Assembly (NCBI GenBank): GCA_001887945.1
Contig: LDOQ01000300.1
Coordinates: 28,632-92,631 of the forward strand
DNA length: 64,000 bases
Direction: 5' to 3'
Origin: Spraguea lophii
Taxonomy: Eukaryota > Microsporidia > Spragueidae
Position numbers and translations under genes: made by a program. Below, piece after piece: positions 4,195 through 60,881 of the stretch. The first letter of the stretch is position 1; every line of letters starts with the position of its first letter. The notes under the pieces are model-generated. The model had not been told where the DNA came from and searched no databases. It was given only the letters and a program-made list of their open reading frames with translations.

Positions 4195-4445
4195 AACGGC
4201 ACTATTATTAGATTAAAATAGTATTTAACTGATGTAATTGCAATCCTTGTATTGATTTATGAATATAGATTACCACGCTAAGAATGATAATTAAACAATA
4301 CGCAAAACTTATAACGCTCTGGTGTATAAAGTAAGATGAGATTAATGTATATATGTAGCAAACCCAATTAATACAAATTTAAATGTGTCTTACAAACCAA
4401 AGGTCATAGCCATGGTAGACCAGAAAACTTTTATAAACTAAAATA
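4195..4445 (+). repeat. 5'-truncated copy of the tRNA-headed SINE-like repeat
   Basis: It aligns by eye with the body and tail of the full-length copy at 44169-44660. Shared segments include 'gattaaaatagtatttaactgatgtaattgcaatcc', 'ataaagtaagatgagattaatg' and the end 'aggtcatagccatggtagacc'. The tRNA-like head is missing. Such 5' truncation is typical of reverse-transcribed elements. Confidence 0.75.
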
Positions 4446-6489: not shown

Positions 6490-6943
6490 TAACTCATTTG
6501 GTCTAGTGGTCGTGGGTTGTGGATGTAACCCTAGGTCTAGCGAGTTCGAATCCCTTACATAGAAAAATTCTTTTAAAAAATAAAAAAAGTAGAAGAGAAA
6601 GGTTGTTGAGTAAGTTAGGGTTTGATAGCATTAATTATATAATATATATAGATATTAGATCAAAGTAGTATTTAATTGGTGTAATTGCAATCCATATATT
6701 GATTTATAAATCTAGATTACATGCTAAGAAAGAGGTTAGAAATCTTTAAGAAGCTGAAATAATGGTAATTAAATAATATGTAAAAATCTCAACACTCTGA
6801 AGTATAAGATAAAATAACCACATATCTGTAGCGAAACCAATTAATAAAAATTTTAATGTATTTTAAGAATCAAGATTACAGATTACGATAAACCCCACAC
6901 GACCAAGAATCTTAGATAAATAAAAGTTTCATTTAAAAAAAAC
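6490..6943 (+). repeat. Near full-length tRNA-headed SINE-like repeat
   Basis: The copy begins with a tRNA-like head. TGGTCTAGTGG (6499-6509) fits a Pol III A box and AGTTCGAATCC (6543-6553) fits a B box, about 44 bp apart. An A-rich linker follows with 'gtagaagagaaaggttgttgag', then the shared body ('attggtgtaattgcaatcc', 'agaaagaggttagaaatctttaagaa', 'tctgtagcgaaacca') and the end 'taaaagtttcatttaaaa'. It has drifted to A/T compared with the GC-richer copy at 44169-44660. No clear target-site duplication remains. It could be mistaken for a tRNA gene, but the head does not fold into a clean cloverleaf. Confidence 0.8.
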
Positions 6944-13789: not shown

Positions 13790-14190
13790 TTTATTCTATC
13801 AAGACATCTTACCATAGTTTTGATAGCTTTCTACGGGGGTATTCTTATGTATTTTACAAAAATAAAAAAATCAAAAAGAAAGGAAAAAAGATATTGGATG
13901 AGTAAGGATTCAATAACATAGCTTGATTGCGTTTTATACAAAGAATAACTACTAAATTAAAATAATTGCAATTCTATATTAATTTTTGAGTTGGTTAATA
14001 CTATGTCAAGAAAGAAGTTAGACATCTTTAAGAAATCGATAGAGGGGAGTGATGTACATCATACTCAAAATTTTAATTTTCTGGACATAATATAAGATGG
14101 AATTAATAAATATTTGTAATGATACCATTTAATGCGAGTTATTCATGTTTTAAAAAACAACAGTTTCAGAGATAAACCGCACAGGAATAA
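13790..14190 (+). repeat. Decayed SINE-like repeat copy
   Basis: It shares the family order: an A-rich linker with 'gaaaggaaaaaagatattggatgagtaagg', then 'actaaattaaaataattgcaattc', 'gtcaagaaagaagttagacatctttaagaa', 'taatataagatggaattaat' and 'cagagataaaccgcacagg'. It lies just upstream of the leucyl-tRNA synthetase start. Confidence 0.65.
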
Positions 14191-43188: not shown

Positions 43189-43269
43189 AACATTTTTATA
43201 ATAATCCTATATTTTATTTAACAACTTTTACTCGATAGGATCAAATACATAATATTATAATTTTATATT

Positions 43270-43712
43270 TTTTTAATGAAACTTTTATTTATAGAGGTTT
43301 CCAGTAGGATATGGGATCATAGCCTATGGTTTTTGATCCATAAGGCATACCTAAACTTGTACCAAGTAGTTTTACTACAAATGTATATTAATATCATCCT
43401 ATCTTATACTCTAAAACATTAGTATTTTGCGTATGGTGTACATCGTCATATCCTCCGATTTTGAAGATTCCTATCCTCTTTCTTTCTATAGTATTTGCCG
43501 AATCACAAATCAATATAGAGATTACAATTACATTAATTAAGTACTATTTTAATCTGGTAATGGACTGCTATGCAAAGAATAACTAATGTTACTCTATCAA
43601 ACTCTCGGCCACTTATCAATTTTTTATCTTATTCTTCTTGACGATGGACTCAACCTGATAGGACTGGAATTAATTATCAGTCATGACCACTCAGCTAAGT
43701 GTCCCTGTCTTG
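43270..43712 (-). repeat. Decayed full-length SINE-like copy
   Basis: On the minus strand the head 'cttagctgagtggtcatgac' is near 43700 and the tail 'aataaaagtttcatt' is at 43275-43290. The body matches the intact copy at 44169-44660 throughout, including 'tacgcaaaatactaatgtttt' and 'taagataggatgatattaat'. Many G/C positions have changed to A/T. No target-site duplication is recognisable. Confidence 0.75.
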
Positions 43713-44153: not shown

Positions 44154-44168
44154 CACCGAACACCAGCT
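44154..44168. repeat. Target-site duplication of the intact SINE, left copy
   Basis: CACCGAACACCAGCT, identical to 44661-44675, directly flanks the SINE body on its 3' side (minus-strand element). Confidence 0.85.
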
Positions 44169-44660
44169 TTATTTTTACGAATGAAACTTTTATTTATCAA
44201 AGCTTCCTGGCCGGTTGCGGCCTACCATGATCTGTGACCTTCGGTTCCTCGAGCGACATTAAACTTGTACTAACTGGTTTCGCTACAGATATGCATTAAT
44301 CTCATCTTACCTTATGCTCCAGAGTGTTAAGATTTTGCGTATGGTGCGCGTCGCCGCCCCCACTTCTAGCTCTTAAGGAATTCCCAGCCTCTTTCGTTGC
44401 ATAGTATTGGCCGAGTCACTAATCAATGCAGGGATTGCAACTACATCAGCTGAACACTACTTTAATCTAGTCGCGGGTCCGTCATGCAAGGCACAGCTAT
44501 GCTGCACTATCGAAACCTCATCCACTCAGCAATCTTTTTCTTCTCTTATGCGTTTATTATTATTTTTTTTTGTTTTGAAAATTTTTTCTGGATGAGGGAT
44601 TCGAACCCGCCAGGCTTGGGGTTTGGTTACCACCCCACGACCACTGGGCCAGGCGGGACT
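44169..44660 (-). mobile_element. Intact tRNA-headed SINE-like retroelement, about 492 bp
   Basis: On the minus strand the element starts AGTCCCGCCTGG at 44660. It contains a perfect Pol III A box, TGGCCCAGTGG (44641-44651), and a perfect B box, GGTTCGAATCC (44597-44607). The head resembles a tRNA with a possible AAC (Val) anticodon loop, though pairing is imperfect. An A-rich linker and a body of about 350 bp follow, ending in 'aaaagtttcattcgtaaaaataaa'. It has 15-bp target-site duplications on both sides. It has no coding capacity, so it would need a partner reverse transcriptase. It is visibly GC-richer than its surroundings and than the older copies, suggesting a recent insertion. The frames at 44407-44690 are artefacts of this element. 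Confidence 0.85.
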
Positions 44661-44675
44661 CACCGAACACCAGCT
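44661..44675. repeat. Target-site duplication of the intact SINE, right copy
   Basis: CACCGAACACCAGCT, the exact match to 44154-44168, lies immediately upstream of the tRNA-like head. Confidence 0.85.
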
Positions 44676-51099: not shown

Positions 51100-51709
51100 A
51101 TAAATAAAATTATTTTTAATTATAATGGGTTAATTATCTTTAATTTATTCTTTGTATTACACAGGTGTTTTTAAATTGTTAATTCATTTTAACACATTTA
51201 AATTTGTACTGATTTGTTTTGCTACAGATATGCATTAATCTCATCTTACCTTATACTCCAGAACATTTTATGAAAAATATGATAATCATTCTTTCAGTCT
51301 TAATGATATTCTAATCTTTAGATGGTTGGAATACTAACTAATTTACAAATCAATACAATGATTCATCATTTAGTTATTCCTTTGTTCTAACAAACAGTAT
51401 ATGTACAAGGATATAATATTACATTATTTTCGTTCTTATATCCAGAATAACAAAACTCAATTATCATTGTATTATGGATGTTAGGATAATATTTAATTAC
51501 TCCTAAAATAATATTTTTATAGCTTATAAGAATAACAAACCATAGTAAATATCTTATTAATGCTTATTTCTTATAACAATTTATTTATCTTTATAAAATT
51601 ATATATTATTTAAGTCTTCATGACAATTTACTGTTATTCTTTATGAACATATTAATTCTTTTATAAAATATTTCAAACAATAAAATATTTTAATAGATAA
51701 TAATAAATT
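51100..51709. other. Intergenic stretch with a SINE fragment
   Basis: Bases about 51195-51400 (minus strand) match the SINE: 'ttttgctacagatatgcattaatctcatcttacctta' and, further on, 'aatttacaaatcaatacaatgattc'. The head is missing. No gene seen. Confidence 0.55.
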
Positions 51710-60260: not shown

Positions 60261-60720
60261 CCGGGTAGTTGTAGGATTGTAATCAAATATCAACCCTAGC
60301 GGGTTCGAATGTCTCATTTTGAAGAATTTTCAAAAAAGAAAAAAAGGTAGAAGAGAAAAAGAGAAAAGTTGTTAAATAGGTAAAAGTTAGACAGGGTATC
60401 ATTAATCACCCCTTGTATAATTGCCTATTACGAGATTAAAACAACGCTAGCTAGTGTAGTTATAATTCCTGTATGAATTTATGAATTCATAATATTATAC
60501 CAAAAAAGAGGTTAAGAATCTTTAAAAAACTGAAAGAAGGATGATTTTACCATATTCAAAAATTTAATATTTTGGAACATAATAAACAATAAAGTTGATA
60601 CATATTTTTAACGAATCAATTAATGCAAGTTTAAACATGCTTTAAGACCCAAATATCATAGACCACAGTAATCTACAGCAAACCAGAAAATTTCAATAAA
60701 TAAAAAGTTTTATTAAAAAA
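60255..60720 (+). repeat. Near full-length SINE-like repeat copy
   Basis: The head 'gttgaccgggtagttgtagg' and the B-box-like GGTTCGAATGTC (60302-60313) are followed by the linker 'aaaaaggtagaagagaaaaagagaaaagttgtt'. The body has 'gagattaaaacaacgctagctagtgtag' and 'aaaaaagaggttaagaatcttt', and the copy ends 'caataaataaaaagttttatt'. It is decayed but complete in layout. Confidence 0.75.
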
Positions 60721-60881
60721 AACTACTATTACATTAATCTTTTTTAAAAAATATTAACATTGCATTGATTATAATCTGAGATGCCTGGTAATTCTAATAC
60801 GTTCCGTACATATATTAATTTAATATTCTTTATTTTCTAAACCAGTTAAAAGATTTCCAAAATATTCATAACAAAAAGTTA

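Follow-up and report, generated by a model that had tools for sequence, protein, structure and literature searches.

Pairs formed by a SINE and a partner LINE are already known in fungi (PMC3747384, PMC5063351). The Mg-SINE of Magnaporthe, a fungal SINE of tRNA type, is 472 bp long and present in about 100 copies (PMC5063351), and it is tabulated with the partner LINE MgL/MGR583 (PMC3747384). SINE2-1_BG of Blumeria graminis, likewise of tRNA type, has the LINE partner Tad1-24_BG (PMC3747384), and the tRNA-related AfuSINE2 elements of Aspergillus fumigatus measure 140–493 bp, carry duplications of 4–14 bp and include one whose 3' end resembles that of a LINE (PMC5063351). Among microsporidia, SINE-class repeats are listed for Nosema bombycis, where they cover 28,669 bp or 0.18% (Pan et al. 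2013, PMC3614468); the entry is a single table line and the paper's text uses the word once, so it describes no element or partner by that name. For Spraguea lophii, Campbell et al. 2013 reported four non-LTR retrotransposon transcripts (PMC3749934), and the repeat survey of Parisot et al. 2014 one LINE family (PMC4202319). The term SINE is absent from the main text of both papers, from that of the 'Celtic Deep' genome paper (PMC4948709) and from that of the Trachipleistophora genome paper (PMC3486916), and our literature search, which covered part of the literature, found no paper on a microsporidian SINE or SINE/LINE pair by title. The first-pass annotation, which knew of no described microsporidian SINE, is in this respect slightly too strong, because Pan et al. 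2013 do list SINE-class sequence.

The window copy and its genomic family

We analyzed a window of 64,000 nucleotides from one S. lophii contig (LDOQ01000300.1) and searched the genome assembly of 73 contigs and 5,273,041 bases (5.27 Mb); the published 'Celtic Deep' assembly measures 5.77 Mb (Williams et al. 2016, PMC4948709). The window contains a SINE copy of 492 nt at 44169–44660. It lies on the minus strand, an orientation that had not been given earlier, with its head (5' end) at 44660 and its A-rich tail at 44169. An exact 15-nt word, CACCGAACACCAGCT, flanks the element at 44661–44675 on its 5' side and at 44154–44168 on its 3' side (features without a strand) and has no further occurrence on either strand of the window, in full agreement with the perfect 15-bp target-site duplication previously annotated. 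Boxes were called as pattern matches to what we take to be the A- and B-box consensus of Pol III promoters. The annotated A and B boxes are indeed there, as the A-box-like TGGCCCAGTGG at 44641–44651 (SINE nt 10–20) and the B-box-like GGTTCGAATCC at 44597–44607 (nt 54–64), and a TTTT run directly past the B box, at 44578–44581 (nt 80–83), is a possible weak Pol III stop. Toward the tail, a 55-nt block common to the SINE and a LINE occupies 44205–44259 (nt 402–456) and includes GGCCGCAACCGGCC at 44209–44222, a predicted 5-bp hairpin, and a terminal block similar to the end of the LINE, containing AATAAA and the A-rich tail, occupies 44169–44197 (nt 464–492); all these features are on the minus strand. 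The G+C content is 45% in the element vs 23% in the window. The element is short and non-coding, with zero overlapping open reading frames of at least 100 aa; its body had been described simply as non-coding, which holds for the reading frames, but about 90 nt of that body are LINE-like tail.

A DNA search of the element against its own genome, with 40 of the 442 candidates scored, gave 42 matches: the window copy, 39 other full or near-full-length places at 94–97% identity and two partial ones. Because 40 places are full or near-full length, a chance origin is excluded, and 44169–44660 is confirmed as one member of a dispersed SINE family. The tail motif AAGTTTCATTCGTAAA was found at 116 places genome-wide (57 on the plus and 59 on the minus strand) and the B-box motif of the head at 161, some of them possibly tRNA genes, with up to one mismatch allowed for either motif; the reversed patterns used as controls gave 0 matches for the tail and 0 for the B box. 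The listings cover 100 tails and 100 heads, and within them at least 60 tails have a head on the same strand 410–439 nt upstream. The 40 other listed tails include some at contig starts and some that belong to full copies with a head outside the 100 listed.

For closer comparison, we fetched the best 30 copies by score, the window copy included, a sample biased to young full copies. The first-pass annotation had named as evidence against its reading a lack of other full-length copies with duplications, or a larger coding transposon of which the sequence was part. In 25 of the 30 copies, flanking duplications of 12–17 nt were found at the head and past the A-tail, while the remaining five (L007, L017, L019, L026 and L030) have no duplication of at least 10 nt; among 870 control cross-pairs, each combining the flanks of two different copies, the median is 6, with 28 pairs at 10 nt or more and two at 12 nt or more. 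The copies stop at the same two points between their duplications, and the element therefore does not belong to any larger coding transposon. T precedes the duplication in 18 of the 25 duplicated copies and A is its first base in 14, which suggests a loose, AT-rich target. Taken with the A-rich tails, the dispersal of the copies and the LINE partner described below, the variable duplications support the original reading of the element as a SINE spread by reverse transcription.

The 30 copies differ pairwise by a median of 2.1% and a maximum of 5.0%. Two of them, L003 and L004, are the same over the compared 482 nt, yet their flanks and duplications differ, and since identical copies sit at different sites, the copying was recent in evolutionary terms. 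Private differences number 36 in the 30 copies over 482 columns; as most variation is common to multiple copies, the pattern suggests several source lineages. RIP-like mutation was rejected because the private differences are symmetric and show no such bias, with nine C>T against nine G>A and not one of them in CpG. Besides the young copy, the window has 12 pieces at nine places that match the SINE at 66–91% (E < 1e-5), and these decayed pieces make the family old as well as young. Old copies lie on the plus strand at 6499–6942, with recognizable head and tail pieces at 70–73%, and at 60265–60722, with a head piece at 76% and a tail piece at 66%; a decayed old copy on the minus strand at 43266–43630 matches at 71% over 43352–43630 and has a weak 27-nt tail match at 43266–43292 (E 0.002). 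Old fragments are found at 4209–4421 (plus, 79–86%) and 13963–14140 (plus, 70%), and a further fragment at 51198–51262 (minus) matches at 91% over 65 nt.

The tRNA-like head

The A-box pattern is present in 28 of the 30 fetched copies, its core CCCAGTGG having doubled as the anchor for cutting the copies, and the B-box pattern in all 30; the B-box core is still present in old copies. We regard these boxes as a putative internal promoter of the Pol III type. A TTTT run was found in 27 of the 30 copies, TTTTT in one and neither in two, and in the four copies with its place listed the run is at nt 80–81; such a run after the B box may stop Pol III early or weaken transcription.

The earlier description of the element as tRNA-headed is based on the box motifs and on a partial match to tRNA-Arg(TCG), with no tRNA seen there by Rfam or ARAGORN. 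ARAGORN found no tRNA in young, old or variant heads, Rfam none in the head up to an E value of 10, and a head of tRNA, 7SL or 5S origin was rejected in the Rfam search for want of any credible match. We then compared the head with 30 fetched out of the 57 tRNA genes above the cut-off. The best match among these 30 was Arg(TCG), with a score of 43 (z 7.7), followed by Met, with a score of 36 (z 6.1). Older and variant heads have their best matches with tRNAs other than Arg(TCG), and we dropped the naming of one parent tRNA as the older heads favor different ones. The head is best described as tRNA-like rather than as proven to be tRNA-derived. Near 45–131 of L068 (G000:C63:11450-12200) we saw a variant head that has a B box and can be aligned to the SINE head if small gaps are allowed. 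It lies a short way downstream of the 3' end of a LINE, on the opposite strand, and is possibly another SINE subfamily.

The probable partner LINE and the shared tail

The annotation had predicted a LINE with a SINE-like 3' end, and such a LINE is present: it has in common with the SINE a 3' block of 55 nt as well as an A-rich terminus. A DNA search with the LINE 3' end, with 40 of 108 candidates scored, returned 41 rows, of which 16 are LINE places and 25 SINE copies; the SINE rows match over 49–55 nt only, at 84–86% identity. On contig C72, a 479-aa open frame that runs off the contig contains a putative endonuclease part together with what looks like the beginning of a reverse transcriptase. 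The frame has the motifs GDWN, IDY and SDH, which we take to be those of APE-type endonucleases. Its Pfam scores are below the cut-off (E 0.0018, 0.0019 and 0.051); the relatives P0001, P0003 and P0006 have endonuclease domains above Pfam's cut-off, and the frame is 25–38% identical to six aligned relatives. Contig C21 starts partway through the C-terminal region of such a LINE and continues into its 3' UTR. Pieces of the C72 coding half and of the C21-type tail are found in order in a decayed copy at C1:71.2-71.8 kb, the only copy to combine pieces of the 5' half (C72) and the 3' half (C21), and this indirect evidence suggests that the two are one LINE. No complete reverse transcriptase of the LINE was found in the 5.27 Mb assembly searched. 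On C21, a LINE reverse transcriptase piece (L064, G000:C21, 1991–2095) lies directly past the A-tail of a LINE copy, an arrangement that suggests the insertion of one LINE into a second.

The LINE copies begin at various points of the 3' region, in the manner of 5'-truncated copies, and end in A-tails. Eight of the 16 LINE places had the 5' junction within the fetched stretch. Five of these eight (L074, L075, L077, L078 and L079) have duplications of 10–18 nt and the other three have none of at least 10 nt (8 nt in L076, 5 nt in L071 and 6 nt in L080), with a median of 6 and a maximum of 11 among 56 cross-pairs of LINE flanks. Given these 5'-truncated copies with duplications similar to those of the SINE, the LINE and the SINE integrate in the same way.

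The Pfam reverse transcriptase search gave nine places in the genome, including the LINE start on C72, a decayed LINE at C48:24.1 kb and a decayed place at C5:73.9 kb. As drivers of the SINE, we rejected the place on C73, where the protease and RNase H domains given by Pfam mark an LTR type, that on C44, where Pfam gives the reverse transcriptase domain only and which was judged LTR-type from its frame, those at C48:16.6 kb and on C56, judged LTR-type from their frames, and two on C2, both within one telomerase-like open frame. The latter (L045, G000:C2, 3725–7441, minus) is a 1239-aa open frame with telomerase RNA-binding and reverse transcriptase domains, and it is probably the parasite's telomerase. 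L040 (G000:C73) and L041 (G000:C44) have LTR-retrotransposon-like frames, the one on C73 being that with the two Pfam domains just named. At L043 (G000:C48:21000-30900), a much decayed LINE has the young SINE L028, with a 14-nt duplication, just downstream.

SINE nt 402–456 align to the LINE 3' UTRs along a stretch of 55 nt, and SINE and LINE are also alike in their final ~30 nt (ATAAATAAA..TTTC..T..AAAAA); about 100 nt that lie between the two tail blocks in the LINE are missing from the SINE. The SINE tail scores 48–70 against eight LINE copies, with shuffle maxima of 25–33 (200 shuffles each), and an 18-nt part of the 55-nt block was found at 153 places, in SINEs and LINEs, at up to two mismatches, with 0 in the control. 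The terminal resemblance alone could be convergent because it is short and A/T-rich and includes AATAAA. Convergence of the 55-nt block seems very unlikely.

The same two hairpins were predicted in the SINE and LINE blocks, but they are not formed by one LINE copy, on C5. In comparison with shuffles, the LINE block folds more stably (z –2.80) while the SINE block does not (z +0.21). In 25 aligned sequences, 85.6% of the cells are paired vs 85.7% in shuffles and 19.6–46.0% when one side is slid, the latter drop being expected because the structure was derived from the same sequences. Two pairs of the shared hairpins changed on both sides in these 25 sequences, the same as in shuffles, and RNAalifold predicted no pairs in their alignment. 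With pairing equal to that of shuffles and an empty RNAalifold result, a shared fold kept by covariation found no support, and we put forward the shared tail fold as a modeled hypothesis.

Origin and spread of the family

We consider it highly probable, from sequence comparison, that the family is a SINE with an internal promoter of the Pol III type, which depends for its copying on the reverse transcriptase that a LINE of this genome encodes. The A and B boxes would drive the SINE transcript, and the LINE protein would recognize the 3' region common to the SINE and LINE RNA. The LINE endonuclease would then nick AT-rich DNA, with the A-tail priming reverse transcription, and the joining of the second strand would leave the duplications of 12–17 nt. 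The first-pass annotation implied a reverse transcriptase with long-range target priming: a LINE was found, but the long-range priming is unnecessary because ordinary target-primed reverse transcription suffices.

A more tentative proposal is that the two elements are a currently active pair of the stringent type, in which the SINE has kept the 55-nt and the terminal A-rich modules and lost the ~100 nt between them. If true, the loss would be a natural deletion experiment mapping the needs of the LINE enzyme, and sequence-specific tail recognition would date almost to the base of the fungal tree. Alternatively, a relaxed LINE resembling mammalian L1 might read the poly(A) tail only, the 55-nt block being a relic without a present role. 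Such a LINE would be compatible with the A-runs at the termini of all 30 fetched SINEs and of the LINE ends shown, with hairpins that show no covariation and with a SINE that spread despite lacking ~100 nt present in the LINE tail; the high identity of the 55-nt block in young SINEs and LINEs alike, and the 153 occurrences of its 18-nt part at up to two mismatches against 0 in the control, make it rather unlikely in our judgment.

We regard it as improbable that the SINE arose from the LINE by deletion, is transcribed by Pol II and owes its A and B boxes to chance. At E 1e-3, its head and body have no match within the 8 kb that surround the LINE 5' half, the A box is present in 28 and the B box in 30 of the 30 young copies, with the B-box core persisting in old ones, and the head aligns to tRNA-Arg(TCG) with a z of 7.7, although such a derivative would agree with the AATAAA before the A-tail of the SINE, with ATAAATAAA near the terminus of many of the LINE ends shown, with the TTTT just past the B box and with the failure of both Rfam and ARAGORN to give a tRNA match. 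An assembly artefact might be suspected from seven examined contig starts that lie inside the SINE (C15, C22, C25, C54, C56, C58 and C60), but breaks at repeats are expected of a short-read assembly, as this one is (SPAdes, k up to 127; PMC4948709), and the copies lie in AT-rich DNA with private duplications. The contig of the window has microsporidian genes and rRNA, the start of the microsporidian small-subunit rRNA lying at the window's end, which speaks against contamination by the fish host; artefact and contamination are together barely credible. One protein encoded in the window, the XPD helicase, matches that of S. lophii 42_110 at 100% identity, the next best match standing at 55%. 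On the inference that short-read assemblies break at repeats, we also dropped the idea that the contig starts inside the SINE are chromosome ends.

Microsporidia are models of genome shrinkage, yet SINE/LINE copying has been recent in this genome of ~6 Mb, and the two elements yield a partner pair that can be tested. The insertions are possible isolate-level markers for Spraguea populations, and the SINE/LINE repeats are a likely cause of assembly breaks.

The Spraguea SINE is likened to the fungal elements by description only. Mg-SINE differs in its ascomycete host, SINE2-1_BG belongs to another lineage, and AfuSINE2 is described in its abstract as low in copy number. SINEs that carry a LINE tail form a known kind, fungi included, and since fungal SINE/LINE pairs have already been described, the pair in Spraguea is a further member of it.
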